A stretch of DNA of 64,000 nt from Doris montereyensis. Lineage: Eukaryota; Mollusca; Gastropoda; Nudibranchia; Dorididae. The stretch lies in the NCBI GenBank assembly GCA_037039925.1, contig JAXRKP010000342.1, positions 162,001-226,000 of the forward strand, in the 5' to 3' direction. Below are positions 16,028 through 44,690 of this stretch, in pieces (position 1 is the stretch's first letter; each line of letters begins with the position of its first letter). Made by a program: the position numbers and the translations under genes. The notes under the pieces were generated by a model. The model made no database searches, was not told the DNA's origin, and was given only the letters and a program-made list of their open reading frames with translations.

Positions 16028-16992
16028 TTTTAGCCTTAACTCACTAGATCTAGATCTAGATCTAGTCTAGTCTAGGTGGATTGTTGTATCTATAAAATCT
16101 TCTATATCCATGGAAATTGGATTTCATGAAATTTTAAGATGGTTTGAAATATAAGATTTAGATTATTATGTTCACTGAGATTCTGATTTTAATGATTATA
16201 ATGAATTTCCGAAAGAGCGAAAATTAATTGGTGTGTGAGACTGACGGTGTGAGTCAGACTAGATTCTAGATTCTAGTCAGAGTGTGCTCACCGTGTCTGA
16301 CTTTTTGTTTAGAAATAATAAAACAAACAACACAAAAAAACCTGTAGCAGTCAGTCCAGTAAGAACAAAGGAAAGCGATTAAATCTATAGATGAACTAGG
16401 CGTACAAGATAATCAAAGTTCAAGAATGGTTACAACTTACATTTTTATTTCTAGGAATAAGGGAAATCTAGATCTAGTTCTACTTTCATTTTCGTTACAT
16501 TTGCAAAAGGGAAATAACATTTGCTGCTCAACAATATGTTGTTTGGAGATATTAAAACCATTATAGTTTTTGAACGTTGAAACATTCTTATTTCAATTAG
16601 ATCCAATTTTGGAAAAAAATAGTGACGTTAAGTAGGGTGTTCAGAAGGTAGAGCTTTATTTCAAGTGTGTTATTTTCCTTGTGGTCAAAACAATATCTGC
16701 CGAACTATCTAAATGAAGCTTGCAGGAAGTGGCACGTTCTCTGAGGAATCTGTCCTTCACATTCTGGAACTCGGAACCATCAGCGGAGCGAAACGAAGAA
16801 CTCCCTTAAATAATATTGCTTTAAAGCGTGTTAATCAACGGTATAAAGAAAGAGGTTTAAGTTTAGTTATGATATCATTTAAATCTAGATATATTTCTAT
16901 ATGTTCTTTCGTCATTCATATAGATCTAGATCTAATATAGATCTAGACGATGATGGACGGTCTGACCTAAATCGCGGCCAGTCGGGGAGTGG

Positions 16993-17010
16993 CTACTACC
17001 GCACTGTCAA
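16993..17010 (+). mobile_element. Left tip of PIF/Harbinger element PIF1 (split off by insertion)
   Basis: TACCGCACTGTCAA at 16997-17010 continues, after removal of the 13.6-kb insert and one CTGTCAA copy, into CTAAACAGTT at 30593. The joined end matches the reverse complement of PIF1's right end (34798-34820) at 22 of 23 positions. This is the only part of PIF1 left of the insertion. Confidence 0.8.
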
Positions 17011-17880
17011 TAGGTACCACAAACCAATTTCTCAATTAGGAAATATCTTAAAAACAATGTTTACAATCAGACAGAACTTGTAAAAACATGAACAACAAAC
17101 TTTACTTCATCAAAATCGACCAACAAATAACAAAGTTATGAATTTGTAAAGTTTATTTTTGGACTTAGTTTTTTTCGAGACTCGAAAAAACGTTATTTTA
17201 GACAATATTTACAGTTGAATTAATATAAATTGAATGATTTTGATAAGGAAGTAATCCAACAATGCAAAAATACTGTATGTCAAGTTCATAAATTATAAAG
17301 GACAATAAGCTAGCATGAATATTAAAAAAGATACGAAGGTACGAAATTGTAAAAAAATCCTTGGACTTAGCCAAAAACGCAGGATTTTCATAGAACAGCA
17401 CTCTAGATGCTATTTTGAGGACCGCATAAAAATGTCCACAAAGGGAATGATTGGGTCAGCATTCAGTAAATCACTTTAAAAGCATATAGAGACAATGCCT
17501 ATTTTTTTCCACAGCAATACGTGAAAACATTTTAAAGTTATTGAAGGATGATTGTGGGGGTGAGGGTCAAAATCGGCCACTCGGCAGAATAATCTTAGAA
17601 TTTAGGGAATCTGGAACTTAAAATCTTAATAAAACGAAAACTAATGAAGCTATGAAGGCATATTATATACCAAAATAAACATGCATTTGAGGACTATTTA
17701 AAGAAAACAATTAAATACATATCTTTCTCATACTTAAACCAGTCAGGGGTAGAAAAGAAAAAGTTACCGGTTAAAAATTAAAATGCATGAAAAAATTATG
17801 GATTCCGATCACCAAAATGTTAATAACTTTTGAACTATACAAGCTGTCTAGCTATAATATACATCAAATTAGTTATCCCC

Positions 17881-18780
17881 CAGACTAGCAGCGGGCACTT
17901 GCCGTCATCGACCGAAAAAACGTCTTAATCGTTCTATTCTCTTTTAAATCAAACTCAACCTGCAAAAAACTACTAGGTTATAATTAAAGATCTGCTCTGT
18001 ACGAAGATCAGCGGTTTTACTAGTATATTAGTAGTAAAAGAGATATAGCTCTTCAAAAATAGCTAACTTAACGGTGTACATCGCCGATTTTCATCGCTCA
18101 AAAACGGCTGGCACACACTATAAATTCATGTGTTTCTCCAATTTCGTTGAACTTAGCTATCGCTTTGCAATGAAGTGTGTTAAATTAGCCTTTGAAAGCT
18201 TTCCTGTGCTATCAATTTCTCCAAGCTCGATATCTATAAATAGCTTTAAACTTAGCGGAAAGTTGACCTATTTAGAGTCGGGAAAATCCGATCTTTGCCG
18301 ATTGAAAATGACTAAGAGTCCCAGACTCTTAGCAGCGGGCGACTTGCCGTCATCGACCGAAAATAAGGTCGTCTTTCTATCTCTCTTTTAAATCAAACTC
18401 AACCTACACAAAAAACTACTAGGTTATACTTAAAGATCTGCTCTGTACGAAGATCTAAGCGGTTTTACTAGTATATTAGTAGTAAAAGAGATATAGCTCT
18501 TCAAAAATAGCTAACTTAACGGTGTACATCGCCGATTTTCATCGCTCAAAAACGGCTGGCACACACTATAAATTCATGTGTTTCTCCAATTGCCTCGCGC
18601 GATGCGTTGAACTTAGCTATCGCTTTGCAATGAAGTGTGTTAAATTAGCCTTTGAATGAGCTTTCCTGTGCTATCAATTTCTCCAAGCTCCGATATCTAT
18701 AAATAGCTTTAAACTTAGCGGAAAGTTGACCTATTTTGAGTCGGGAAAATCCGATCTTTGCCGATTGAAAATGACTAAGA
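17881..18780 (+). repeat. Two-copy tandem repeat, unit about 440-460 bp
   Basis: Copies at 17881-18317 and 18322-18780 are nearly identical ('agcagcgggc', 'gccgtcatcgaccgaaaa', 'ggtgtacatcgccgattttc', 'gattgaaaatgactaagag'). They differ by short insertions in the second copy, e.g. 'gcctcgcgcgatgc' after 'ctccaatt'. No gene seen. Confidence 0.85.
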
Positions 18781-19071
18781 GAATTATATACTCGAATACA
18801 GTGTCCTCTTCTCGATTTCAGTTATCATGTCCAAAAATGACTTCATGATTGGTTGAATCAAAATTCTTTTCTCCATCAAAAATGGATATGGAAAGCTTTG
18901 CAAAAATGTGCAGTGCCTTCCGATATCCTTTTCGATTGAAAATCGAGATTTCAGTACTTTCACTTTCACTTTGAAACTGACTGCCTAGCGATCAGCACCA
19001 GAACAACACCACTCTCCCGCTCTACTTCATTCCGATTTTAGATCTAGATAAACTTCTTTTCTCATTCAAAA

Positions 19072-19680
19072 ATGGATATGGATCTTCTTGAAATGTGTGG
19101 TAAGTATTTCCTCTATTTTCTTTTAAATATTAAGATACATAATATGACCCACTTGTTGCTTCGATTGTTGACAAATTTGACTGGAGAACGATTGTTTGGT
19201 GATTTGGAATTAGACTATGACATGCATAAGCGTAGAAGAGCTAATTTACACTTAAGGTCCACTATCAATATGTGGAAGCATAATAAGACTGTACATTGGT
19301 TTTTGTAGTTTGCGTGAAAAAGAGCAAAATACAATTTTAGTGGCAGCCAAAAAGAATTCAGAAAATTTAGTGTTACAAAGTAAACATTGTGAAGCCCAGG
19401 TTCGTGAGAAAAGTAAAACACAAAATGCAGGAGAATAAGAGAAAAGATGTGAGATGAAAAAAGAAAGATTTAAAAGATAGGAGAAAAAAGCTGACATTTT
19501 AGATGCAATTATTTCAGATGGTGGATTGTGTAAGACTAGAGAAGATTTGGATAACTTAAGGAAAAATGGCACCGCAGATAGTTTAAGAAATCAGATAAGA
19601 TACAGGAAAATATTTTTCATGGATGAAAAAAAGCTTAAAAGTAACAGGGACCATCAATACACCGTATACATGTAGTTGTT
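19072..19680 (+). pseudogene. C-terminal fragment of the TAGGTACC-element gene (copy A)
   Basis: Begins with MDMDLLEMC followed by a donor-like gtaagt. From 19165 it reads LTNLTGERLFGDLELDYD and RSTINMWKHNKTV, then in other frames REKEQNTILVAAKKN, ADILDAIISDGGLCKTR, LRNQIRYRKIFFMDEK. The same order occurs at the end of the inner element's gene (25570-26040: RSTINMWKHND, ILDVILEKG, LKNQIRYRKLFLNEK). Several breaks. Its orientation is opposite to the outer element's own gene, so it is a rearranged or separately inserted piece. Confidence 0.65.
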
Positions 19681-20035
19681 GATTGATAATATTGAATGAT
19701 TTTAATTTTGTTATATATACATGATGTAATTGTGAGTTCCTCGAGCTTGTGTAATTTTGTCTAAATTTAATATATTCCTTATTCTTTTCTTTTCATTTTA
19801 ATCGTGTATCCGGCTGCTTGGTCGACTTTGAGAGACATTTCTATTACTACTATGTTTATTTCGTCCCTGGGATATTACCAAACCCAAAGCTGCCATATCG
19901 TCTGCAACTGCAACAACTGATCTCAAAATTTCAGCTGAGTTTCACCAACACTTAAGATAAGGCAGGCGACAAACAGTTGACCTAAAAGCTCTTACTCTTA
20001 TAATTATTATTTGTTTTTTGCCCGGTACAAAGGGC

Positions 20036-20690
20036 AAAGTTTCATTGATTTATCTTACCATTTAACATTTTTATAATGGAAAAACTGATTTGGCACAAAA
20101 TATTTTCATTTGAGGGAAGTTATTAATTTTTTGCCAACGACTCTGTATGATTTAGTTCCTATTATGATTAAACCCACCATTTCTTGACCCTCAAAGCATA
20201 AATAAGTATGCAAAGTTTCATTGATGTATCTTTGCGGATAAATATGATGAAAAACCTGATTTTTTGTCAAAATATTTTTCTAGCGTAAATTACTATTTTT
20301 TGCCCACAACTCTGTTGATTTAGTTCCTATCATAATTATAACACCATAAATGTATTTCTTGACCCTCAAAGCATAAGTATGCAAAGTTTCATTTTTTATC
20401 TTACCATTTAAGATTTTAATAATTTAAAAACTGATTTTCTGGGAAAATATTTTCCCGCGCGTAAATTATTAATTTTTGCCCACAACTTTGTTTATTTAGT
20501 TCCTATCATAATTAAAACACCACAGTGTCTTGACTCTCAAAGCATCCGGTTGACTTCAAAAATGACTATGAAATCATGCAAATGCTTTTCATTGATGTAT
20601 CTTACTCATTTAACTTTAATTTAAGGTATGGTCTTTCATAATGATGAAAAACCTGATTTTCGCCAAAATATCTTCCAATGAGCCCAAATT
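20036..20690 (+). repeat. 178-bp tandem repeat array (first block)
   Basis: Units start 'gcaaagtttcattgat' and contain 'aaaaactgatt', 'ttttgccca', 'tttagttcctat' and 'cctcaaagcata'. Three to four units, diverged. The same unit forms the array at 27441-28090. Confidence 0.8.
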
Positions 20691-21310
20691 ATGCTGGAGA
20701 ACCTTGTTTGGTGATTTGGAATATTTCTTTATGTCTCTGAAAAAAACTATGACATGCATTTAAGTCTTTCTATGATTTAGAAGAGCTAATTTACACAATT
20801 AAGGTCCACTATCAATATGTGGAAGCATAATAAGACTGTACATTGGTTTTAGCGTAAAACTTTTAGAAACATTTGTAAAATTCATAACTTTTTTATTTAT
20901 CAACCGATTTTGATAATTTAAAAAGAGCAAAATACAATTTTAGTGGCAGCCAAAAGAATTCAGAAAATTTAGTGTTACATTAAGATACATAATAAACATT
21001 GTGAAGCCGCTTGTTTGGTGATTTGGGTTCGTGAGAAAGTAAAACACAAAATGCAGGAGAATAAGAATTCAGAAAGATGTAAGTAAGAAAGATTTAAAAG
21101 ATAGGAGATTTAAAAAAGCTGACATTTTAGATGCAATTATTTCAGATGGTGGATTGTGTAAGACTAGAGAAGATTTGGATAACTTAAGGAAAAATGGAAC
21201 CGCAGAAAGTTTAAGAAATCAGATAAGATACAGGAAAATATTTTTGGATGAAAAAAGCTTAAAAGTAACAGGGACCATCAATACACTGTATACATGTAGT
21301 TGTTGATTGA
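20680..21310 (+). pseudogene. Scrambled second copy of the C-terminal fragment (copy B)
   Basis: From 20690 to about 21130, short pieces matching copy A (19175-19520) alternate with pieces matching 28085-28530. After that it follows copy A closely ('agctgacattttagatgc', 'gatttggataacttaagg'). The tail 21310-21540 matches 19680-19925. No usable frame. Confidence 0.7.
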
Positions 21311-22149
21311 TAATATTGAATGATTTTAATTTTGTTATATATACATGATGTAATTGTGAGTTCCTCGAGCTTGTGTAATTGTGTCTAAATTTAATATATT
21401 CCTTATTCTTTCTTTTCATTTTTTGCGTCGTGTATCCGGCTGCGGGGTCGACTTTGAGAGACATTTCTATTACTACTATGAGCCGTCGTCCCTGGGATAT
21501 ACCATACCCAAAGCTGCCATATCGTCTGCAACAACTGATCTCACAGTAGGTACCACAAACGGCAGGCCGGACTGGGCAGCCGTTTCGCTCAGATCGGTGA
21601 AAATCCGAGATAATAGGCGACGTTAACAAAGCACAGCTCCTCTTTCATTTGATCAATTACAATGAAATAAAAAAGAATCTGGAAGGCTTTGTTTTGTCTG
21701 TCTTATGTATATTTTAATGTTATCGTGTCTTATATAGATCGTTTTTATTTTTACAATGAAAAATATGTGGAATAGTCATTTTTGACGAGACTCGGCCGCG
21801 ACCCAGCACGTAGATCTAAACTGCATTCGTTGATTAACGGATTTCTCCGTGGCGATTCCTCGCACAAAAATAACCGTGACATCACCAGAAAGGTCAGAAT
21901 CTGACCTTTATTATTATACTAGGCATCCCATGATTCATTTACGATGGCAAGCGTGGTTGAGTGAGGAACGTCAAATTTCTCGCAGAACTGTTTAAAACTA
22001 GCGAAATATAAATTTTTTCACGCTGTGCTATACTTCATAAGAAAGCCCATGATGTATGTTATTCGGGCATGACATAGTTACATGGCTTAATTTCATCGCC
22101 ACCGAGTAATTGGAACATAAAAACAACACCCCATCGTCGATTCAAAGCA

Positions 22150-25100
22150 ATGGCGAAAGAGGGACAAAGCATGAAGCCCAGCTCCCACGACGGCAGCGAC
22201 CATGATAACACCCTACATTGCAGTATAAATGATCAAAATCCGTCAACCATTTCAATATCTACAGAACTGAAAGGTAAGTTGATTTATATTTTGCCTATTT
22301 CCTAAGTTTTAGCTTTTTAATTTAGATAGATGAAAAAATAAACATCACCACAAGTTCAATCAGTAACAGGGGGGGCATTTTCATTATCGGAATAGCCAAT
22401 TGAACAGCCGGGTCACTGTGGTCGACCGGAAATCCGCTAAAATGCTTATCAGCGAACATAAACAATCTCCCTTGTCCCTTGCATACTCTACACTACACAC
22501 TTCAATTTTAACGAATTCACTCTTTTTTTGTGTGTGTAATGAATACTCCTGAAGTTTATTGAAATATATAATATTTAAACAAACGGCTGGTTACTAGTAC
22601 TAGAAAATTGTGGATCTATTACTATTACCTGGTATTATTATTACGCCTGTGTCTGTTACTGTTCATCAATCTTCCCTCCCCCCCCCCCCCCTTTCCACCC
22701 CCGCAATATATAACTTAGTGTATTACGTTATTTGTTCTCCCTCTAGATGATGAAGTATACCAAGCTCTTAAGAGACACTTTCATCGACATGGGAAGGGTC
22801 GACCGCCAGATTTGCCCAAGGGACTTATTATCACCAACCGACTGCTGCTTCAGCTTTTCTTCTTGAAGGAGGAAACTCATCACAGTTATTTGCAGGTTAG
22901 TATTAGTATTGTTGCCTCATACATTCTGCTCTTGTTTCACTGCTTCATTTTCACATTTTTACTAGCGAAATGAAGACGACATACTGCTTTGATGGATGCA
23001 AATAACAGATCCGCAGATCAAGTCTCAACTTATTCAATCACTGTTCTCAATCACTGTTCCTTAGTTTCATTTTTCCATCATTTTGTATTGCCTTTTATTC
23101 TATTGCTTTAACTTTAACTATTGATACGTACGTGCGAATAACAACAGTCTTATTTTTTTGAAGGGGCTTAAAAATATCCTATTTTTATCTTCCTCAGCTC
23201 AAATCTTGGCTGGAAAAATTGGCTCCTGAAACCGTGGCAGTGACTGAGGGCCGCATTAAAAATAGAATTCAAACCATTTTGAAGCTGTGTTCTAAAAGGA
23301 CTACAGCAGACACGCTTCGCTTCCTTGGGGAAAGCTATGACTTCTTCGCCCTTGCTGAACCTCTAGCCCTCCTTGGACTAACACGTCGTCATTTGACTGG
23401 CCTAGATCAGTTTGACAAATCCCCACAGTCCATGATATCTAATGCTGTAGTTATTGCCTTAGAAAACTTTAAATCTCAGGTAAGGAGACAAGTGCCTTTG
23501 TCACAAGATGGTTAGCGAATCTGTGTGTACCATGTAAAGACCTCACACCAAAACAGCTTAAATTAAAAGTAGAGAAGATTGTCAAAACTGCAAGAAAATA
23601 TAAGAATAATCAGAATTTCATTGACACTTTGTTAGCCTCCCCATTTTATCCTCTTCCCCGCCAAGCATCCCTTTAGAAAACGCTGTAGAGGATAGACAAA
23701 ATGCCATACTTAAAAGGGAAGTACAGACCCAGTTGTCCAAAAATGAAGCTTCAGAAATTAATAATAAGCAGTTGCAACTTAAAGTTGATGTCCTTACTGA
23801 AGAATTGAAAGCTAATTTTAACAGTTTTGAGGCTATGAAGAGAAACGTTAATGAATTACAAAATACAGAAAAAGCAAATAAGAAACTAAGAATGCAAAAG
23901 GTAAAATTACAAAACAAAATAGATGATTTAAAGACCACTAAGATATATAAAAATAACGCTAAATTAAGAAATGAAATAGCCTGTTTGGAAAATAAAGTAG
24001 ATCAATTGGAAAAAAGAGATTAGCAGAGCTCAGAAATCAGACACAAAAGAAAATTTAGCCAAATTAAAACGAAAAATCAACAATGAACAATCAGAAAAAT
24101 GTAAGTGGAAGGCAAAGTTTAGTAAATTAAATGATTCTTTAGTCATTGATGATGATGATAGGCATGAGTTTGATGAGGATTTAAGTTTACGAAGAATCAT
24201 CAAATAAATTTAAACCCAATGTAAGACTAACGTACATGGCCCTACAACAAGGAATTGCAGATATTCCTGCTGGCAAATGCAGCAAAGTTGTAGATATAGT
24301 TAGTGAACACCTTCACGGTAAAAAACTTAGAAACCTGCCAAGCACTTCAAGTGCTTTGAATATGGCAGATGAAGGCCATCACATTGCGAAGCAACAGGTC
24401 GCATACCAGATGCTTAATTGCGAGCAATTTACTTTTTGCATCAGATGGCACTAGTCGTCAGAAACAACATTATGTGGAGCGACATATTGTTCTAGAAGAT
24501 GGCTCACACCTTAGTTTAGGTTTTAACGAACTGGCTACTGATGACGCAAAATCTCTTTTAGAACAATCAGTGGAAATCTTAGAAGAGATTACAGAAGTCC
24601 ATTGCTCTGCTAATGATGATTTGGATAGGGATGCTATTCTTATCCAAATCTTACGAAAGATGAAGGCATTGATGTCTGATCGGGCTGCAAACATGAAATG
24701 TTTTGATAAGGCCTTTCATGAATTTAAAAAAGAAAAATTAGGGGCTGATGATGCCAGTACTATTTTCCTTTTTTGCAATGCGCATTTTTTGTTAGGTCTG
24801 TCTACAGCAGTAGAGAAAGTTGCTGCCGAGATAGAGTCTGAAATGTCAGAACCTGGGACATCATTTGGTGGACCATTTCTGTTTTTTGACCAGAAGGCCA
24901 GCATGGCACTCATCCGATGTGCTGCTGACATATGTGGCCCTAGAGGCGATGAGAAAAACGGTTGCCGTCAACAGTGGCTTGCTTATTGTCAAAAAATGAG
25001 CTTGAAGTCTTTATTTTGTAGTTTTAGAAGTAACAGGTTCAATAACGTTTTTGAAAATGCTTTTGCTTTAGTTGAACATAAAGATCACATTATTGACTTT

Positions 25101-26051
25101 TTAGACAACTTCTGCACCATTGCAAACAAAAAAGTGATGGCTGTGCGCTCTGCTCTTGATAATAATAAAATTGTTTCTTCTGTTTTATCAATTGCCATAT
25201 ACAACAGTATCCTCACAGGGCCATATTGGAATCTCATGAACAGTCAAAAGCCTTACTCTGCGTTTCCTATGTCACGTTCAACAGATTAGTTCTGCTTTGT
25301 CAGAGTGGGCATCTTTATCTGACCCTGAGGATTTACTCCGACTCAGACCCTGCATAAGTGAAGTTGAATTTTCTTCACAAGCAATGGATAACTCTTTTGT
25401 AGAATCGAGGGCATTCTGTGCTGAGACATTTTTTAAGAGTTTTACCTCAATTGCTGAGGAGGTGAATGTTGTCCTCAAGAGACAATTATGTGAATTTTTG
25501 GACGATGGTATTTTTGCTGGAGATATTCCCTTGGATGTTAGACAAGTTTTAGATAAATGTCCATTAACTAATCTGACAGGCGGCGTCTCTTTGGAGACTT
25601 TGACTATGATGTGAACAAAAGACGACATTGTTCAACTCATCATCGTTCCACTATTAATATGTGGAAGCATAATGACACCCTGGCATGGCTAATGAAGAAA
25701 AGTAAAGGAGAACAAAACAAAATAATGATTTCAGCCTACAAAGGTGGAAAATTATTAAGAAAAGAGCACAACGAGGCTGTTTTAAGAGAAAAACAAAAAA
25801 TTCTTAGACTAATAGAAGAAAATGAAACGAAAAAGAACGAAAAAGAACTTTTAAGCTTAGAACAAAGGAATCGAATTCTTGATGTCATTCTAGAGAAAGG
25901 TGTATGCTCCAGCAAGGAGAATATTGATTATTTGTTTAAATTTGGAACGTCAGAAGATTTAAAAAATCAAATTCGATATAGGAAACTCTTTTTAAATGAG
26001 AAGAATCTTAAGACATCAGGTACAAAAAGCAGCTTTTTGACCAACTCATGA
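22150..26051 (+). CDS. Putative transposase of the inner TAGGTACC element, several frame breaks
   Basis: Exon 1 22150-22273 (ATG at 22150, donor AAAG|gtaagt), exon 2 22747-22895 (ctctag / GCAG|gttag), exon 3 from 23198 (cctcag) to the stop at 26049-26051. In order the protein has: a short N-terminus; a domain with GRPPDLPKGL and NRLLLQLFFLKEE (exon 2); LKSWLEKLAP; a coiled coil (23680-24200); KLRNLPSTSS; LFASDGTSRQKQ (24436); MSDRAANMKCFDKAF (24672); FCNAHFLLGL (24772); NRFNNVFENA (25035); RSTINMWKHND; LKNQIRYRKLFLNE. The two Asp, CxxH-like and Glu blocks look like a DDE/RNase H-fold transposase, which is inference. About seven one-base breaks (near 23510, 23670, 24020, 24190, 24440, 25285, 25590) interrupt an otherwise clean protein of roughly 950 residues. 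No named family is claimed. Confidence 0.7.
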
Positions 26052-26249
26052 GTGTCATTAATCATGATTAATTTGCATTAAATGTTTTGACATTGAAGAT
26101 AGATGAAATAATTGAAACTGTTGTAGTTGTAAGGTTTGACCACAATATGCAAAATAATCACATTCCAATAGCATTTTTAATAAGTTTTAAAAAAAAGTAA
26201 CACTTCAATGCTTGTAATCTATTATCCTCACATATTTAATATATTAATA

Positions 26250-26700
26250 GAGCTCAGATTTCTCTCTAATTTGATATATGATATGACTGGATAGCTTTTA
26301 CGGTTCTAAATTTATTGAAGGTTTTGTTCTCGGAATGCATAATTTCCGTTAACAATTTTTATCAATTACTTTTTTTCCTTTTGGCTTGGCTGAAAGACAT
26401 TTTAAGGAATATAATACTTATTTGATTAACTTAATTAAATAGAGCTTAGATATTTCTTTAATTTGATGTATAACATGACTTCATAGCTGTTACAGTTTTT
26501 AATTTATTGAAGTTTTTTGTTCTCGGAATTTGTAATTTGGCAAACATTTTCTCTCAAGGACTTACGAGTTATTTTGCCCTAGGTGAATTTTTATGAGGAA
26601 TACAATTCTTTAATTCATATCATTAGATAGACCTTAGATTTCTCTTTAATTTGATATATGATGTGACTTAATAGCTTTGTTAGTTTTCTTTTATTTAAAT
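26250..26700 (+). repeat. Tandem repeat near 188 bp in the inner element's 3' part
   Basis: Two and a half units marked by 'gatttctctctaatttgata' / 'gatttctctttaatttgata' at about 26255, 26445 and 26632, with 'tgttctcggaat' recurring. Confidence 0.7.
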
Positions 26701-27440
26701 TTTAGTTCGAAATTGCTCAAATCAGTCCATTTTTTTGCCAGTGGCCAATTTTAACTTTGGATCCTCAATCATTGTACGATGAGTTCAACATTTTTTCATG
26801 AAACACTGCCAAAAAAATTAGGCTTTGTCTGTATATACTTTTGGTGTGATTTACTGAATTCTAACTCTCTCAATTCATTCGTTACATTTCTGTGAGCTTC
26901 TAAATATGGCATTCTGAACCGTTTTCTTATGAAATATGAAAAAAAATTCAAAGTCCGGGTGGTTTTTTCAATTTTGTAACATCATATCTTTGTCAGTATT
27001 CATGTCAGAATGTCTTCCTTTATAATTTGTGAAGATAACAAAGCAAAGTCATGGATTATATGCTTATATCCTGTTTCCAATCATTCAATTTGTTTTAATT
27101 TCACCACATAATGGCATAAAAAATGGCCTAAAATTGCTTTTTTTATTTTGTGAAAAAATTTTAAGTCCCAATAAACTTTGAAATTTCATAACTTCATTAT
27201 TTGTTGATCGATTTTGTTGAAGTAAAGTTTGTTTTTCTTGTTTTTACAAGCTCTGTCTGAAAGTCATATTGTATTTAAGTTATCTGCCAATTGAAAAAAG
27301 GGGTTGTGGTACCTACTCACAGGTTTCAGCTGAGTTTCACAACATAAAGATAAGGCAGGCGACAAACAGTTGACCTATTAGCTCTTACTCTTATAATTAT
27401 TATTTAATGTTTTCTTTTTTAGAGACACAAGTACTAAGTA

Positions 27441-28090
27441 GGCAAAGTTTCATTGATTTATCTTACCATTTAACATTTTTATAATGAAAAACCTGATTTT
27501 TGCCAAAATATTTTCACGAGCGTAGTTATTAATTTTTTGCCCGCAACTCTGTATATTTAGTTCCTATTATGATTAAACCCACCAGAATTGTATTTCTTGA
27601 CCCTCAAAGCATAAGTATAAGTATGCAAAGTTTCATTGATGTATCTTTGCGTTTAAGATTTTTATGATGAAAAACCTGATTTTTTTGTCAAAATATTTTC
27701 CCAAGCGTAAATTACTATTTTTTGCCCACAACTCTGTTGATTTAGTTCCTATCATAATTATAACACCATAAATGTATTTCTTGACCCTCAAAGCATAAGT
27801 ATGCAAAGTTTCATTGATGTATCTTACCATTTAAGATTTTAATGATGAAAACCCTGATTTTTGCCAAAATATTTTCCAGCGCGTAAATTATTAATTTTTG
27901 CCCACAACTTTGTTTATTTAGTTCCTATCATAATTAAAACACCAGAATTGTATGTCTTGACTCTCAAAGCATAAATATGCAAAATTTCATTGATGTATCT
28001 TACCATTTAAGGTTTTTATGATGAAAAACCTGATTTTTGCCAAAATATCTTCCCGAGCCCAAATTATGCTTTTTGCCCGGTTTGGTGGTA
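27441..28090 (+). repeat. 178-bp tandem repeat array (second block)
   Basis: Unit starts at about 27441, 27625, 27802 and 27980 ('gcaaagtttcattgatgtat'). Each contains 'gatgaaaaacctgattttt' and 'tttagttcctat'. It is the continuation of the outer element to the right of the inner insertion. Confidence 0.85.
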
Positions 28091-28799
28091 TAATAATTCA
28101 GAAAATATTTCTTCTATGTCTCTGAAAAAATTGGGCTAACTGTCTGGCACCATATCTGCATTTAAGGGAAATTATATGGTCTTTCTATGATTTATGGCAT
28201 GTTTATGTACTCCCAAAAATGCCATTTTTTGACAATTTTGACCAAAATCATGTGTCGCACAATGTATTTTTTCTCTATTTTGGTGCTGTGTCACAATAAA
28301 TATGTGAAAGATAACAGTCTCATTGCTTGTTTTTTTGCTTTTCTATGTGTATGGCTGACGTATGCATGTAAAGTATTTAAGCTCATACCATTTTTATGGA
28401 TTCTAGAGCCTCGTAAAATTGGCATAATTTCACATTTTGAATCATAGGCGTAAAACTTTTATTTAAGTGGAAACATAATTGTAAAATTCATAACTTTTTT
28501 ATTTATCAACCGATTTTGATAATTTAAAAACTGTTATTCATGGTCTGGGAAGTACTATCTGTTTTACATAAAAGAAACAGACTTTTGAAATTAATTTTTT
28601 TCAGTCTGGAACAGCTAATCAAATTAAAGACAAATCTTAGCTCTATTCAGTACAGTACAAGTGATCAAATAAACATATTTCCCATAGTACACCAAAGAGG
28701 CTTGGATTAGTTAAGACATGATTTTGTAATTTGTAGTGATTAAAAATTCCGATAAACGTCAACATTCTGTAGACCCTTGATTTATTTTCTTATAGGTAT

Positions 28800-29985
28800 G
28801 GATTCTATAAGAGGTAACATGATAATCCGGCTCAAGGTAACGCTTGACAAAGTTGGGTTCAGTCTGCATGCCCATTCTTGAAGCTGAAAAATAAGAAGAA
28901 AAAGAAAAGAAAAAATTAATTAAGTGAAAAAGGTGAGCAAAATCAGAATATCACTAATATCAGGGTTTACTGCATGTCCATTCCAGAAGCTAAAAAATAA
29001 GGATAAGAAAAAATATACATATTTGATGAATAGGTTGAACATATCCCAACATTTCCCTTCATACCTTATAGGCCGCTATAGTACCGGTATTAGTATTGCT
29101 CGAAAAAAAATTATATTGTCCTGTGGAGTTAGAAATATGTGATGGCGCATCTGAATAAAAAAAAAGAAAATAACAGATCTACTTACATCAGCAAATGTGC
29201 ACAGGTTATCCTCTTCTTTAAGAAAATACAACTGCACCAACAGTCTGTGGGTCACCTGCACCGATGAAAGTAAAATCTGGGATGATTTCTTTGGCCGACC
29301 TCTTCCTTGGGGTGTTAAGAAATTTTCCTTTAACACAATGTATGTGTCATCCTCTGAAATATGAAAAAAATGTGAAATTGTTAAATATGGACAGAAAATA
29401 AATAATATCTTGTTGGTAGGCATTTATGTAGAACACCCCCCCCCCCCCCCCCCCACCCTTTTCAATTGATGGATTTTTATAGAGATCGTTTTATTTATCT
29501 GACTGTTGTGCTCCTGACTCCTCCTGAGTAAAATTGTAACTAATAAATAGTAATAGTATAGATCTAGATCTAAGTAGAGAACGATAGAATTTGTAGTGAT
29601 ATGACATTCATAAGAGTTACTTAATCCCACACTTAGTAGAGAGAGAGAAAGAGAGATACATCTAGGGGAGTTCTATCTGATCCGTAGCGACTAAGTAAAA
29701 GTAAAAGTAGGGCCTATCCCGCTATTCTCGAATCAGAATCACCTCCCCATACGGCCCACAGTACGAAGTATAGTAAGTATAAATAGTAGAAACAACAATT
29801 ATTTCATATTTGTGTCGCTGATATAGAAATTATACAATTAGTTCAAAGTAAGATTCAAAATCTTAAATAAATAACATACCTATTAGCAGTTTCAGTTTTT
29901 CCATAGACAAATTCAATCCATTTTTATGCGAGGTAAGTGTGGAAGTTTCGACGGGAGTAGGTTCGCCTCTGGTAACAGCCGCCAT
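28800..29985 (-). CDS. 5' exons of the outer TAGGTACC element's gene (copy D, truncated)
   Basis: Exon 1 29985-29880 (ATG; MAAVTRGEPTPVETS, ends ATAG|gtatgt), exon 2 29353-29187 (tttcag / GAT|gtaagt; EDDTYIVLKENF, GRGRPKKSSQ, VQLYFLKEED), exon 3 from 28883 (tttttcag; LQEWACRLNPTLSSVTLSRI). Each pairs with the same exon of the inner element's gene (DDEVYQALKRHF, GKGRPPDLPKG, LQLFFLKEE, LKSWLEKLAPETVAVTEGRI), with the same intron phases. Protein similarity is clear but distant, so the two are different subfamilies. Nothing downstream of exon 3 is recognisable on this strand, so the gene is truncated. Confidence 0.75.
28950..28989 (-). pseudogene. Duplicate start of exon 3 of copy D
   Basis: A second acceptor (tttttag) followed by CTTCTGGAATGGACATGCAG repeats the beginning of exon 3 about 105 bases upstream of it, then hits a stop. 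Confidence 0.6.
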
Positions 29986-30573
29986 TTTCCCCAAGCGTCG
30001 AAGCGTCGAATGACGTTTTTTTGTCTTCTTTGAGGCTCGTTCCGCTGGCTGTTTTTTAATAGATTTGGATGTCGTTCATATGATTAAAGAGGGTAAAGGA
30101 TCAAGTTTGTAACGATGTCAAACAAAGTGTGAATTTAAGATTCTGAGGGGACATTTTTGCAAATCAAAATTTCAAAACGCTCTCTTCACCTCGTGCTGAT
30201 TAAAACCCTCAGGTTGTTTGGTATCAAAAGAAAGCGTAGTTATTTCCCTTTGACATCGTGTGGCTTTCGACGATTTTCGGCTGTAAACGGCGAACGAGAA
30301 AACCGAAAGTAATTTGAGGTCGCTGCCAAAATGCCGATGTCTACGCGAGATAGCGCTTTGTAGTTGCGTTAGATCTAATAGAATCACCGGGCCGTGAATT
30401 TGTTACAGTTATCAATTTTAACACATATAAAAAGAAGAAAAGGACAGCTTTTAAGTAGTTTTGTTTTATTTCAAATAACCGATTCTGTGAAAAGATATTG
30501 TAGTGGAAAGATAGACAAGTTTTTCAAATTTTTGCCGTGTTCACTGCCAGTTCCGTCGCTCGATAGCGGGCAG
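29986..30573 (-). promoter_or_regulatory. Probable 5' control region of the outer element's gene
   Basis: About 590 bp between the terminal repeat and the ATG at 29985, mirroring about 590 bp in the inner element (21559-22149). It should hold the promoter by position only; no certain TATA or initiator motif is seen. Confidence 0.35.
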
Positions 30574-30715
30574 TTGTGGTACCTACTGTCAACTAAACAG
30601 TTAAGTCGATGTCGAGTCGTTGTCGTGTCGAGCACATTTACCCTACTGCACTAGGACTAAACTGTCGAACGACTTTCATTACCTACTTTTATTGCGAGGT
30701 GTGTTTTATTTGAGC

Positions 30716-33205
30716 ATGGATGTAGAAGAAGTTGCATGTGTTTGTGCTCTTCTCATTTCTTTGAGGAAAAAGAAACCCAGAAAGCGTTTCTGGGTTCACC
30801 CCATCATCAGTGCAAGATTGTTAAAGGGCAATTTCATTGTTTATATGAGGACCTGAGATGTTACCCGCAAAAATTCTTCGGGTATTATCGAATGAGTAAA
30901 AGAAAGTTTCGATGATCTTCTTAGACTCGTTGGGCCTTCAATCACTTTCCAAGATACAAGCTTCAGAAAAAGTGTACCGCCAGAGGAGCGATTGTCTGTG
31001 ACACTGAGGTAAGTAAGAGTTAGTGCCAAAGTGTGTTGGTTTGTTGTACATTGCATATAATTTGACTTCATGTATCCACTTTAAAATGCAATTGCTTATT
31101 TTGATAGGTACCTGACTCAGTGGTCACACGTCAGTTTGGTTCTGAAAAACGTTACAAATAAACCAGACATAAGAAAACATTAATATCCCAAACATGGACA
31201 TACGCATCCATCAGTTCATCCATCCATACATCCACACATGCATACCTAACTTCACACACACACACACACACACACATACAAACATACATATAAACATACA
31301 TACATATAAACATACATACATACATACATACATACATACATACATACATACAATATACATACTATACATACAATATACAACACATACAAGATACACAAAA
31401 ACATGTCTCAAAGTAATGATGCATTTATTGCTACGGTATTGTGATATGACAACTGGGAAGCTGCAATGGAAAAAAGCAGGAGTTAGCGCCACTTAATGGT
31501 GCATAAAGAATTCAGATGGAGGGGAACGGTCATTAAAGGTATTGATTGACTGGGCAGAACTTGATGATGGCGATGGAGATGGCGTGAATGATCTTTGAAC
31601 GGAAATAGGATGATAAGGTTGGTTGCTGACGTCAACACTAGTAGCTGAAGCTGTTGATCCCGAATATGTCTGGTATGATGGAACTTGCAAGGAACTGGAA
31701 GGAGTTTGCATTGTGTGCCTGTGTAGAACTCCCATGAGCTCCATCTTTACCTGAAACTTTTTTTCCACACTCAGTCTTTCAACGCCGGCACCAGACTCAG
31801 AACAAAGCTTTTATCCTCGTCGATTTCTTCAGCTTGGTCCTTTTTCTCTTATATGATGTCAAGCAAAGATTGTTTGTAAGAAATGTGTCTTTTCTTTTGG
31901 CGAACAGAGCTGGGAGGGGACAACATGGCATCAGGTCTGCACCATCGACCTGACAATCGGTGACGTTGTCATCTTCCTCAGGGCAACTTTCCGGGGCCTC
32001 CAGATTGGATTCTGTTTCTTTTTCATCAAGCACGGAAGGAGGAACAGCAGTTGATCAAAATAAATGTATTTTCTGCGTTTTTTGGCTGCCTGTCCGGACG
32101 TGTCTTTTTTCTGTTCCCTTAGCTCCCGTTGAAAGCAGGAGCGTAAATTTGTCCATCTTTGTTTAATCTCTTTGCCTGAAAGAAATGGAAAGATAATATT
32201 GAGTTACCGGGACTTGCATAATATGAATATAACTTACGCATTAATACATAAAAGACTTGAAAGAGCTATCGAACTTATCTATACCTTATTCTATTTCAGA
32301 TATCTAGCGACAGGATGCAGCATGGTATCACTTCACTATGAATACCTCCTTGGCATTGAAACAATTCGTGAAATAATCAAGGATGTCACTGAAAAACTGT
32401 GGACATACCTCGTACCAGTTTGTATGCCAGAGGTGGACGAAGATTCGTGGCTGAGAACTGCCAATGATTTTTATCAGAAGACACAGTTTCCGAACTGTAG
32501 CGGTGCTGTAGACGGAAAGCACATTCGAATTTGTCAGCCGAACAACACTGGAAGTTTGTTCTTCAACTACAAAGAGTTTCTTTTCGATTGTGCTGCTGGG
32601 TGTTGTGGACGCAAATTACTGTTTTTTATCAGTTGACATTGGCTCATTTGGAAGTTGTAGCGACTCATATGCTTTTAAGAAATCAAACTTTGGTCAGAGG
32701 CTTGAGAGGGGTCAATTAGGTCAGAGGGGGTCAATTAAAACTGCCTGCAAACGACAAACTACCAGGAGATGTTGATGGTCCTGAAATGCCATTTGTACTA
32801 GTTGGTGATGAAGCATTTGCGCTTTCAGAAGACGTTCTCCGTCCTTACGCTAGAAAGAACCTTACGCAAGCAAAGAGAATTTTCAATTACCGCCTCACTC
32901 GTGCGAAAAGAATGGTAGAATGTGCCTTCAGGATTCTGGCAAATAAGTCGAGAATTTTCCATGGTCCCATAAATGTCAATCCTGACTTTTGCAACAACAT
33001 CATTAAAGCATGCTGCGTATTACACAATTATGTAAGACGGAGAGATGGAGTTTCCTTTGACGACGTACTGTTTGAATGTCCAATGCAGGGAATAGATCGT
33101 TGTCGTGTGCGCTCTCCTGCATCAGCAGTGTCAAAAAGGGAATATTTTACTCAATATTTCACCTCTCCAGAAGGATCAGTGTCTTGGCAATATGACAAAA
33201 TCTAG
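30716..33205 (+). CDS. PIF1 transposase (HARBI1-like, DDE_Tnp_4 type), frame breaks
   Basis: Exon 1 30716-31008: MDVEEVACVCAL, RFWVHPIISARLL, then after a shift RMSKRKFDDLLRL and PPEERLSVTLR, donor TGAG|gtaagt. Exon 2 32300-33205 (atttcag): YLATGCSMVSL, CSGAVDGKHIRI (first Asp), then after a shift LGVVDANYCFLSVD (second Asp), DEAFALSEDVLRPY, RMVECAFRILANKSR (Glu), stop at 33205. This is the full HARBI1/PIF domain order at normal length. Breaks occur near 30850, 32580 and 32700-32760. It acts as the cut-and-paste nuclease together with its MADF partner. Exon 2 of the partner gene lies inside the intron. Confidence 0.85.
31255..31385 (+). repeat. (CA)n / (CATA)n microsatellite in the PIF1 transposase intron
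   Basis: About 11 CA units, then a long CATA run. Frames across it (Tyr-Met-Cys-Val or His-Thr repeats) are not genes. Confidence 0.9.
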
Positions 33206-33887
33206 TCTCTCGCCTGTATATATATATATAATTCTTACTAGTTTTATCACTTTAACATAATGAAAATAGTTCAAGTAGCTGACTGCATCGAAAAACTGAA
33301 TTTTGAAAAAAATAAAAGAAAGAAAAGAAAAAAAGAAACACCCCAAATCAAAATATACCCCTAGCAAACAAACCAAAACACAGAAACACATGATTAACGA
33401 TAGGGAAGAATGGAAGGAGGAGACAGGTGGGACGGAGGGAGGAAGGGAAAGGGAGGGAGTGAGATCGAGAGATTTTGTTTGTTAGTCAACAACTCAGGTC
33501 ATTTCAGGCTTTTACACTTTTAGGGGAAAAGTAAGATGATCTACCTGGTTTAATCTAATTGACTCACAATTTAACAGAATTTATATTATCATTTCTAATC
33601 GTAAGTGAAAAGCCAGGGAGTTTTCAGTCACATCAATTACAATTTTATTTGTTTGCAAATGAATATGATCAACTTTTTTTTACTTTTTTGGAAACGAATT
33701 CTCATGTTTTATTCATTATTGCTGTTAATGTTATGCATTGAAAGTTTAGAATAAACTGCAAGTGCAATTCATGAAGTTGTGTCTTCTTTTAATTTGAGAA
33801 TTAGCTTCTAAACGTCATATTCGTTACCGTGGAATGTGCTAAACAGAATGATAGTCAAAAGATGGAGTGAAAGAGAAGAAGGAAGAA

Positions 33888-33972
<85 letters not shown>

Positions 33973-34180
33973 GAGAGAGAGATTTACTTTTTTCACTTTC
34001 ATTCTTTTGGCTTTCTCAGTCAAATCTCCCCAGTCAGGAATGACATGTTCGAAAATTTCAGTCCATGCCTTGTCCTTTTTGTCTTTATTTGAATAGTCCC
34101 AGTAGGGATTTACTAAATAACAATGGCTTTTTTTCGATAAGTGAAATCAAAGTTTCCACCCAGTTGACATCTACGTCCAT
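31493..34180 (-). CDS. PIF1 MADF-BESS protein (DNA-binding partner of the transposase), frame breaks
   Basis: Exon 1 34180-33988: MDVDVNWVETLISLIEKKP, then after a shift NPYWDYSNKDKKDKAWTEIF and a basic end, donor AAAA|gtaaat. Exon 2 32175-31493 (ttcag): KEIKQRWTNLRSCFQREL, RKYIYFDQLLFL (MADF second half), an acidic linker with breaks, SFVLSLVPALKRLSVEKKF (BESS), and a Ser/Pro-rich tail to the stop. MADF binds DNA; in PIF/Harbinger elements this second protein assists transposition. Exon 1 lies beyond the transposase stop and exon 2 in its intron, so the two genes interlock. Confidence 0.8.
33880..33982 (+). repeat. (GA)n microsatellite inside PIF1
   Basis: About 95 bp of GA. On the minus strand it is a (CT)n run starting a few bases after the donor of MADF exon 1. 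Confidence 0.95.
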
Positions 34181-34820
34181 TTTTGTCGGTGTACAGTATA
34201 GGAAGTGAATGTAATACAGATACTTGACGATACGACACACAATGAACTTAGATCTACATGTTGATAGGGATGCATTGGCGCGCTTGGCAAAACAAGCACA
34301 CACAGACAATAGTGAACAACATACTGACATGCACACACTCTATTAATCTTATTTTTAAAAAAAATAATTTGAAACTTCGTTATTCGTCCTCGCGTAAACT
34401 TTATTAATTTGAGGTCGCTGAATCCAAATACATGTATGTAATCAGATTTTTCTACGACAATGTCCAGCCGAGTTATGGCCATACAAACGTGGCCATACCT
34501 GGGCTAGCCAGCGCCTCTCTGCCAGCCCATCCTTTCACTTTCAGACTTTCACTTTCACTTTCACATCCGGTGGTGCCAACTTGTGCTGTCGAGTCGTGTT
34601 TGGGTAGTGCGGTAGGCCTCTATTATAATTTTCCCCTATCTATCAATATCAGTACTATCACAGAATTGCGTTCGACAGTTGTGTTGAGCACGGTTTGTGG
34701 CTTGGCACAGACTTTCCGGACAGAACAGTTTGGTTTTTTAGTGGAGAAGGCTCTTCTTATGTTGATTATCCACAGATGGCCCAAAGACAGGACAAAACTG
34801 TTTAGTTGATAGTGCGGTAC

Positions 34821-35922
<1,102 letters not shown>

Positions 35923-36097: not shown

Positions 36098-38748
36098 ATG
36101 GCTTCCTCGTTTGAAGATGACTTTTTGTTGGCAGACAGCAGTGTGACCAGGTTTCTTCTACTTGGCATCGGGAGAAGGAGGACAAATAGCGTTCATGACA
36201 TTAACAAACGAAGGCGAATTGACGGCGAATACCACCACCTTTTCCAGCAATTAAAGCTGTACCCAGAGAGATTCATTCCTATACACGAATGAGCAAAAGT
36301 ACATTTGACTACATTTTAAAGAAGGTCGAATCTAAGCTGAGCAAGGCATGGTGCAACTTTCACGACGCAATTTCACCCGAGGAAAGGCTTGTTGTCACCT
36401 TGAGGTAAGAGTTAAACTGTATTTTGTCACATGTACCTTGTATCAAAAACAGTGCACCTAAGGATACATTTGAAAGTTTTCTCTGCACCCCCTCTTTATT
36501 TCATTTTAGCTGTTCTTGATCTTTGACTTGGACGCAGCTAATTCAATTCCAGTACATAATTCCCCTCAATTAGGTGCACAGCATTTGATGTCAGGTCTAA
36601 TAAAAGCCCCTTTCCAATACAAAGCAAAACAAACAAACAAACGAACCGACGAAAGTGTACACCAAAAAAAAACACAACAAAAACACAGTGTGAAATATTG
36701 ATGATACGTATTTTAATGGAAACGAACAACAACCAAAAAAAAAAGATAACCATTGATTCATTAATAGAACTGTAGTATGTTATTTCGATGTTTGGGTTGG
36801 GTCAGTTAGGGTACACACTGTCGCTACATCATACTACATGACTGGTATTAGTGGTATGTGTCAACAGATGGGAATGAAGAGAAAGGTCTGTACACTGATG
36901 GCAATTGCTCATATTGATTTGTATCCCTTCTATCACTAAATAAACTAAATTCTTCAATGAGCAGTTGCAGTCTGCTCCTAAAGGCCATTTTTCTTTCAAA
37001 GGGAATTCGTTTCACGTAGGGATGCAGAGACTTCAAAAAAAGAAGATCATCATCATCGAGTACATCGGTACGTTGACACCTCTCAGTAAGTAACTGCATT
37101 TTTTTGCTGTTCAATTTCCAGAAGTTTTTCATAGTGTGACGAATCCGCTCTTCTCTTTTTAACTCTGGTGTCTTGTGGAGGAGGTGTAGGTGTTTGTACT
37201 GGTGTTGATGTGGGGCTGGTAGCGCAAGACACCATGGAATTGGTATCAGTGCCAGCGTTGATGTTAAGGCCCAGATCGACGCTTTCAGCATGGCTTGTTG
37301 GCTCCAAAACTTGGAAACTGTTCTGGGAGCGTTCTGATTCGGTATCTACATCTTTACCGTTGGCAAGGCTACATAGAGAGCCAGAGCATTTCCTCGGTGC
37401 CACAATGTCTTTGAGAAATAGCAACTGGTTAAAATATTGCCATTTGGATTTCCATGGAGGACAATCAGCCCCGTCCCCTGAACGAACCACAGGTCTCTTT
37501 GTGTATTCTGTCGCAAAGTAATCTCTCAAGTTCTTCCACTTTTTTCGTAGCACTGCATCTGCAAAAAGAATAATCCGATACATGGTTTTATTTCTGTATT
37601 ATCAAAATAAGAAATTAGCTGCTGAAGTCTATTGATATTGTAGTACCCTAAGAGATTTGTTTCTTGTGTGCGAGCGTGTGTATGTGCGCGTGTGTGTTAG
37701 TGAATGGTCAATGCACGCGCGCGCGCGCGCGCGTGTTTTTAAATTTCAATATCATTATGCCACTATTATCCTAAATTTTTCAGGTTTAAAAAACACAAAT
37801 GAATAATTCATTGAATTAAAATTCTATACAATGTACAGCAATATTGTATTTTTCTTTCTGTTTCAGATTCCTCAACACAGGCGCATCGTTCAGATCACTG
37901 GCATTCACATTTCGGATGGGTACGGCTACAGTAGCAAGTATTGTGTCAGAAACAGTTGACATCCTGTGGGAAGAATTGCAGCCTGTGCACATGGCTGTCC
38001 CATCATGTGAATCGTTCAGATCAATCGCTCAAGAAATGTGGGATATTTGGAAATTTCCTAATTGCATTGGTGCGCTGGACGGAAAACATGTTAGAGTTCG
38101 ATGCCCAGAAAACTCTGGGTCTATGTTTTATAACTACAAGCATTTTTTCTCAATTGTTCTCCAAGCCCTTGTGGACGCAAATTACAAATTTGTTGTGATT
38201 GATGTAGGAGGCTACGGGAAGCAGAGTGATGGGGGAACGTTCCAAGCTTCAAGTCTATATCAAAACATAATGAGTGGGAAATTGAAAATTCCGGAGCCAG
38301 CACCTCTGCCAGGCTCAACTGAAATGGCATCCTTTGTATTCGTTGCTGATGAGGCCTACCCCTGCTGCACTGTCTGCTGAAACCATATGGTGAACAAAAC
38401 CTGTCTCTCGATGAAGAATGTTTCAATAAACGGTTGTCCAGGAGTCGGAAGACTGTTGAATGTGCCTTTGGCATATTGACTTCCAAATGGCGTCTGCTAA
38501 ACAAACCAATTGAGACAAGAGCTGAACTGGCAGATCGCATTATAAAATGCATCTGCGTTTTGAACAATACTATCATTGATAGAGAAGGAATAGATCATAA
38601 TTACACAGAGGTTTCAGTAACAAAATCTACAATGACTTGGGAACGAAGTGGAAGACCGAGCAATGATGCCAAGTCAACAAGAGAAGTTTTCACTTCTTAC
38701 TTCAAGAACCACCCACTAGTTTATTCAGGAAACGAAAGTGTTGGTTAG
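36098..38748 (+). CDS. PIF2 transposase (HARBI1-like), two frame breaks
   Basis: Exon 1 36098-36404: MASSFEDDFLLADS, a basic NKRRRIDGEYHHL, ERFIPIHE, then after a one-base shift near 36290 MSKSTFDYILKK and SPEERLVVTLR, donor TGAG|gtaaga. Exon 2 37867-38748 (tttcag): FLNTGASFRSLAFTF, CIGALDGKHVRVRC (Asp), LVDANYKFVVIDVGGYG (Asp), FVFVADEAYP, after a shift near 38365 KTVECAFGILTSKWR (Glu), stop near 38748. Normal family length and domain order. Intron position and phase equal those of PIF1. Confidence 0.88.
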
Positions 38749-44100: not shown

Positions 44101-44690
44101 AGGTGTTGAATAAGGTCAAAAACCAGAAGATGTCAAAACCAGGATACAGAAGGTACGACAAGCATTTTTAAGCCTTAACAAGGTATGGTCCAGCAAGAGT
44201 TTACCAGAAAGAATCAAACTAAGGATATTCAACTCAAATGCCAAGTCAGTGCTAACATGTGGCTCAGAAAAATGGAGAACCACAAAAACTACTCTACAAA
44301 AAATACAATCATTCATAAATTAATTGATTGTCAAAATATTCTGGCCTTAAGCTATCTCAAACATTAATCTATAGGAAAGAACTGGACAAGTGTCATCTGA
44401 AAAATATTTAAAACGAAAGAAATGGAGGTGGATAGACCACACGCTTAGAAAGGACCACAACACAATAACAAGACAGAGCCTTACACTTTCATGAAACCCA
44501 CAGGGTAAAAGATCGAGGTGTCAGCCAATGGCTACATGGAGAAGAGAACTGAAGGGAGAGATCAATTATGACGGGGCAAACATGGAAATCTATGGAGAGA
44601 CTGATCCAGGAGAGCAATGGTTGGAGATTATTTGTTGATGGTCTGTGCTTCCCATCGAGCTAAAAGACAAAAGAAGAAAATGATCATTTT
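41200..44690 (+). mobile_element. RTE-like non-LTR retrotransposon, full-span but decayed
   Basis: A leader of about 450 bp is followed by a single reading frame broken many times. Endonuclease: GTWNVRTMYETGK (41770), then GLGETKLT, GGVGFMF, QCYAPTNDKEEYV, a changed catalytic block RDFNAKIGDDN (42185), MGKHGLGTMNENGE, and a final block with SSAHHLVIGK. Reverse transcriptase: LLSIPGKILNRVILERLK (43368), DEQAGFRQNRSCTDQIATLR, YINFIDFEKAFDSL, KTGVRQGCLF, DLDFADDIALLSHTHKQM (43868; the FADD box). The C-terminal RKRWRWI-type block is at 44400-44450 and the end is near 44650, followed by ACTCT/CT repeats. The frame needs at least ten shifts. Confidence 0.85.
43357..44171 (+). pseudogene. Reverse transcriptase domain of the RTE-like element
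   Basis: Two frames, 43357-43650 and 43686-44171, together cover RT motifs from the N-terminal SIPGK block through QAGFR, FIDFEKAFD, GVRQGC and FADD to the GSM-type end block (CYLGSMIHG). A break lies at about 43640. It cannot give a functional protein as read. Confidence 0.85.

Follow-up and report, generated by a model that had tools for sequence, protein, structure and literature searches.

A stretch of 64,000 nucleotides from the nudibranch Doris montereyensis (contig JAXRKP010000342.1, positions 162,001 to 226,000; hereafter the window) contains a nest of four cut-and-paste DNA transposons, in which a PIF/Harbinger element, PIF1, holds an outer element, the outer element holds a middle one and the middle element holds an inner one. 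The outer, middle and inner elements are very probably members of a single transposase lineage with a hAT-like mode of action. The nest is ordinary in kind, and its value lies in the transposase lineage that it exposes. An earlier, sequence-only reading of the window had counted three nested elements and overlooked the middle one. The elements and their target duplications, in base pairs (bp), are the following.

16991 to 34825, plus strand: PIF1, a PIF/Harbinger element; both ends and the flanking TTA/TAA are seen in other copies
17011 to 30585, minus strand: outer element, 5' end at 30585, in the left terminal repeat of PIF1
17004 to 17010 and 30586 to 30592: target duplication of the outer element, CTGTCAA, read at the junctions
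17870 to 28617, plus strand: middle element, 10,748 bp, termini TAGTTATCCCCCAGAC ... GTCTGGAACAGCTA; empty site in contig C1389
17863 to 17869 and 28618 to 28624: target duplication of the middle element, ATCAAAT, single copy at the C1389 empty site
21547 to 27315, plus strand: inner element, 5769 bp, 12-bp terminal repeats TAGGTACCACAA; transposase gene broken by frame changes
21540 to 21546 and 27316 to 27322: target duplication of the inner element, CTCACAG, single copy at the empty site in contig C1014

The borders that the sequence-only reading had given for the outer and inner elements were reproduced base for base at all four junctions, which read CTGTCAA followed by TAGGTACCACAA at 17011 and TTGTGGTACCTA followed by CTGTCAA at 30585 for the outer element, and CTCACAG followed by TAGGTACCACAA at 21547 and TTGTGGTACCTA followed by CTCACAG at 27315 for the inner one. 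Its claim of separate insertions, each with a direct repeat, is borne out. Within the window the exact 12-mer is present at these four ends only, and when left flanks were paired with right flanks of different insertions, none of the 210 cross-pairs had an exact 7-mer in common; the junctions thus represent more than chance. The two elements have opposite orientations, with 17011-17732 matching 27315-26592 inverted at 70%. The intact target of the inner element, GATCTCACAGGTTTCAG, is kept in C1014.

The middle element becomes visible when the window is compared with the rest of the genome (513 Mb, 3500 contigs). A copy in C1389 aligns with the outer element in four segments, all inverted (30229-28823, 28824-28618, 17871-17736 and 17737-17048), and pieces of the outer element that are adjacent in C1389 sit 10.7 kb apart in the window. 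C1389 reads ACATCAAATTAAAGAC, where the window has ATCAAAT, then 10,748 bp from TAGTTATCC to CAGCTA, and then ATCAAATTAAAG. In the related copy C1014, the match to the middle element ends at the same 3' end, ...CAGCTA. The identical stretch flanking the middle element on both sides is 9 bp, ATCAAATTA, and the duplication was taken as 7 bp so that the element starts with TAG and ends with CTA like the other elements. Inside the middle element lie fragments of a transposase C-terminus, along with a tandem duplication and satellites of 176 bp.

19048 to 19305, plus strand: C-terminal transposase fragment with the family motif TNLTGERLFGDL, from translations
About 20778 to 21306: second, diverged copy of the C-terminal fragment, in a duplicated segment
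20034 to 20544 and 27435 to 28078: 176-bp tandem repeats, about 3.0 and about 3.6 copies

The sequence-only reading had proposed a search for further TAGGTACCACAA pairs in the genome, and many were found. Fifteen end pairs were tabulated from fetched loci. Eleven carry an exact 7-bp repeat (outer, inner, middle, C14, C1001, C505, C1061, C1079, C1884, C340 and C2811), and another, C1169, has a 7-bp repeat with one mismatch. An independent recount, which admitted every pair whose ends each had no more than one mismatch and set aside two wrong pairings inside the window, gave 10 of 14 exact at 7 bp. Where an end had more than one mismatch (in L024, L026 and L031 and at chance sites within the window), no convincing repeat was seen, and these pairs were excluded from the fifteen. 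The duplicated targets show a preference for C-T-n-W-n-A-G, T2 and A6 being found in 20 of 24 strand-symmetrised positions. In Hermes, T is preferred at position 2 and A at position 7 of the 8 bp (PMC8721813). Genome counts of the end sequence are inflated by a 32-bp minisatellite at L053 (contig C491:80550-81150), the unit of which contains the 12-mer TTGTGGTACCTA. Used as a key to the literature, the 12-mer gave primer-like chance matches and was discarded.

The coding remains of the outer and inner elements are as follows.

23162 to 24020, plus strand: N-terminal helical domain and coiled coil of the inner transposase, in several frames or exons; the region also occurs in relatives
24185 to 24451, plus strand: start of the inner catalytic domain; frame change near 24440, just ahead of SDGTSR
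24360 to 25286, plus strand: inner catalytic core, with SDGTSR, MSDRAANMK, CNAHFLLGLS, GPRGDEKNGCR and RSNRFN
25240 to 26048, plus strand: C-terminal part of the inner transposase, in two frames, 25240-25611 and 25572-26048
29076 to 29423, minus strand: N-terminal coding fragment of the outer element containing GRGRPKK; its AT-hook match is weak and falls short of the cut-off (E 0.1)

The transposase core has at least 134 matches in this genome. A protein search with the inner core returned 46 proteins, and a search with the alignment of those returned 87. Among named relatives, the nearest to the inner transposase are gastropod proteins, and overall the relatives come from Elysia, Nucella, Littorina and Plakobranchus, from the bivalve Sinanodonta and from teleosts; class assignments were looked up for Nucella, Elysia, Sinanodonta and Esox. 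The proteins share the motifs DGTSR, MSDRAAVMK, CNAHFLLGL, GPRGDEKxGCR, SNRFN and GExxFGxLD, the last of which resembles the hAT motif around the catalytic E. Two aspartates, a CxxH (31 of the 33 transposase rows have the C and the H) and a candidate E are conserved in the lineage. After the catalytic part, P0047, P0053, P0057 and P0061 also share a C-terminal stretch, GEWVAVFYDxxFYIGQV.... Pfam scans of these transposase proteins gave no family at cut-off, and a sequence search of solved structures gave nothing relevant.

The fold places the lineage close to hAT. The model of the relative P0008 is confident and matches Hermes far above any other entry listed, and the longer model of P0051 gives the same result, with Hermes best. 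Identity to Hermes over the fold match is about 12-14%. The RNase H-like DDE core with a large helical insertion, which is a hallmark of hAT, is present in these models of two relatives over most of the length of Hermes. A DDE transposase of this build would bind the TAG...CTA ends, cut the element out and join it to target strands 7 bp apart, and repair of the gaps would leave a 7-bp direct repeat. The analysis establishes the ends, the repeats, the empty sites, the fold of a relative and the conserved residues; this chemistry and the occurrence of excision are inferences. The "unfamiliar element" of the sequence-only reading, the borders of which were exact to the base, can now be assigned as a hAT-like DNA transposon.

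Several observations weigh against this assignment. Similarity to hAT at the level of sequence was not found, a DDE_3 match in one window fragment stays below threshold (E 0.0066; 16.7 bits, where the cut-off is 28.6), and the structures modelled are those of relatives and not that of the window copy. As to the duplications, 4 of the 15 pairs were first found by a search that demanded a repeat, a bias which the recount of all pairs removes; the repeat of C1438 is 6 bp, C1047 and C2917 (two of the 15 pairs) have no clear repeat, the repeat of C1884 lies within a GA run and says little about length, and that of the middle element is 7 bp only if its start is TAG.

PIF1 is a conventional element.

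32133 to 33205, plus strand: PIF1 transposase fragments, from translations and a Pfam match
32720 to 33205, plus strand: DDE_Tnp_4 of PIF1, E 5.8e-17
31931 to 32203, minus strand: MADF (Myb/SANT-like) protein fragment of PIF1, E 1e-8

A DDE_Tnp_4 transposase together with a MADF protein is the usual pair in PIF/Harbinger elements, and PIF1 has both. The 3-bp TWA duplication of this superfamily is present as TTA/TAA beside the GGC ends of several other copies and has decayed in the window copy, where the last bases of the right end are degenerate and the duplication is not visible. The sole notable difference from PIF/Harbinger elements is the insert carried. Free of inserts, PIF1 is about 4.25 kb long. 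Its terminal repeat, previously put at 23 bp, is about 30 bp in other copies (GGCTACTACCG... and GGCCGGTACCG...), which also extend its span from 16993-34820 to 16991 to about 34825. When the outer element and one CTGTCAA are removed, the restored left end, TACCGCACTGTCAACTAAACAGTT, equals the right end, TACCGCACTATCAACTAAACAGTT, at 23 of 24 positions, in keeping with the 22 of 23 reported before.

A genome search with PIF1 DNA gave 92 rows, and ends were read at 15 loci (L039-L052 and L054), of which 13 had a readable left end (those of L042 and L050 were not). As the sequence-only reading predicted, the left terminal repeat is unbroken in 12 of these 13 and runs into CTGTCAACTAAACAGTT; among the 12, one reads TTGTCAAC and one has a diverged stretch upstream. 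Copy L040 (C2800; position 1479-1517) has a 6-bp duplication, CTGTCA, and reads CACTGTCA followed by CTGTCAACTAAAC, exactly at the site of the outer element in the window. This could be the footprint of an excision, in which the 7-bp duplication remained but lost one base, or six bases could have been duplicated in tandem by chance. When four PIF1 copies were compared, L040 did not group with the window copy, and it is therefore not counted as evidence of excision. Short PIF1 derivatives of roughly 800 bp that keep both ends are many (L043-L052 and other rows of the genome search).

The outer element landed in a PIF1, the middle element in an outer element and the inner element in a middle element. 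Of the order proposed earlier (PIF1, then outer, then inner), the first step stands, and nesting does not prove the whole: it does not show that the middle and inner elements arrived after the outer element had entered this PIF1, since the outer element may have carried them. That the three were assembled elsewhere, and that the outer element entered PIF1 already loaded, is a serious possibility, although less likely than not. In a star-like divergence of four PIF1 copies, the window PIF1 has 45 private changes in 3205 sites (1.40%), and the inner element has as many in proportion, 18 in 1229 (1.46%), which speaks for a preloaded outer element; these differences are, however, within error, and an insert of 13.6 kb may move less readily. 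The alignment of the outer element with its nearest fetched copy, C1389, covers about 2353 sites and contains 37 mismatches, which are divided between two branches. As judged from these substitutions, the divergences agree with entry of the outer element after PIF1 had landed, and private substitutions leave the order of the middle and inner elements undecided. At this locus the outer, middle and inner elements are probably passengers today, since the inner gene is broken and the outer element lacks the transposase core of its related copy: the core in C1389 (33032-33889) falls in a part (32041-34906) that has no match in the outer element.

Although the lineage works like hAT elements, it is not filed as a member of hAT, because two Pfam hallmarks and the 8-bp duplication were looked for and not found. 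The hAT dimerisation domain PF05699 and the N-terminal BED zinc finger do not appear in the family tables, nor among the 25 families displayed out of 120 in a search over 40 members at E up to 10, many of the proteins being incomplete at the N-terminus; the 7-bp duplication fits only the hAT7 subgroup. A separate superfamily that is sister to hAT, instead of a branch within it, is conceivable, if rather unlikely. It would account for the missing Dimer_Tnp_hAT and BED matches, for duplications of 7 bp where hAT and Hermes have 8, for the lineage's own N-terminal helical and coiled-coil region and for the low identity to Hermes. On the other side, families with 5, 6 and 7 bp already stand inside hAT, so that length alone does not separate. 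Fungi already have named hAT families that duplicate 7 bp (hAT7, from rust fungi; PMC12730594), and hAT5 and hAT6, named in the same paper, also fall short of 8 bp, with 5 and 6 bp. hAT7, as described there, clusters with fungal and plant hAT of the Ac/Tam3 type and is classed by transposase similarity, whereas the present lineage has animal hosts and was compared with it by description only.

That the three elements belong to the P superfamily is improbable. Galileo, a member of that superfamily, makes palindrome-like 7-bp duplications as seen here, but with the consensus GTAGTAC (PMC2775673), against CTnWnAG here, and its ends are long and internally repetitive; the C/DxxH motif is common to P and hAT (PMC10045372). 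The best fold matches are to Hermes, well above everything listed, and the transposase tables and the 25 of 120 families displayed include neither THAP nor any P-element Pfam family. P-element structures are absent from the listed fold matches, which is no proof against the P superfamily, and one fish row, P0194, has a precomputed THAP domain. Dada shares a DDE transposase with C/DxxH and duplications of 6-7 bp (PMC3706591), but targets multicopy small RNA genes and lacks terminal inverted repeats, whereas the elements here have 12-bp terminal repeats and varied 7-bp targets; within the window, neither a tRNA nor an Rfam match reaching the gathering score was found. IS3EU was considered for its TA...TA ends and set aside (6-bp duplications and a tie to IS3/IS481), as was Kyakuja, which makes 7-bp duplications and has CA..TG ends without terminal repeats. 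Finally, a single large composite or tandem rearrangement in place of successive insertions, which the tandem duplications and satellites within the middle element might suggest, is hardly credible when three boundaries each have their own direct repeat and an uninterrupted counterpart elsewhere.

Two further features lie outside the nest.

37083 to 38576: second Harbinger remnant, with MADF at 37083-37583 (minus strand) and DDE_Tnp_4 at 37844-38380 (plus strand)
43686 to 44171: reverse transcriptase fragment, RVT_1, E 1.1e-8

The lineage has relatives in teleosts of a different kind. Searching with the Siniperca protein returned 236 proteins, 120 of them listed; the teleost relatives are P0100, P0106-P0111 and P0127-P0241, several of them named Zgc:109744, and every listed row that carries a species name is, so far as can be recognised, a teleost. 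In an alignment of 122 fish-group and 33 transposase rows, the unnamed rows being included in the fish counts, the first catalytic D is present in 28 of the 28 transposase rows that have a residue there and the second in 31 of 31, while each is present in 0 of the 122 fish rows. Since both catalytic aspartates are lost in all 122, zgc:109744 looks like a domesticated and, to judge by these residues, catalytically dead relative of the window transposase. In the tree, the thirteen fish rows included group together as a clade with a long stem (a long-branch warning applies to one mollusc row), as a domestication that happened once and long ago would produce. Some fish rows (P0161, P0190 and P0219) bear the name or a domain of a riboflavin transporter, which may point to a fixed neighbour gene. 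The term 'zgc 109744' retrieved no paper in the library searched.

The boldest proposal, and a rather unlikely one, is a separate, unnamed hAT-like superfamily of animal DNA transposons, with 7-bp duplications, TAG...CTA ends and its own N-terminal region, which would still be diverse in molluscs and of which an old member would have been captured once by teleosts as the dead gene zgc:109744. The family may already be deposited in Repbase, as the Repbase paper gives 'hAT ... 7-bp TSD' (target-site duplication) as an example query. The lineage is numerous, yet has no Pfam model above cut-off, and its proteins are therefore left as hypothetical proteins in genome annotations. With its end sequences and repeat length, it can now be found in other genomes, and a teleost gene of unclear role gains a likely and testable origin.
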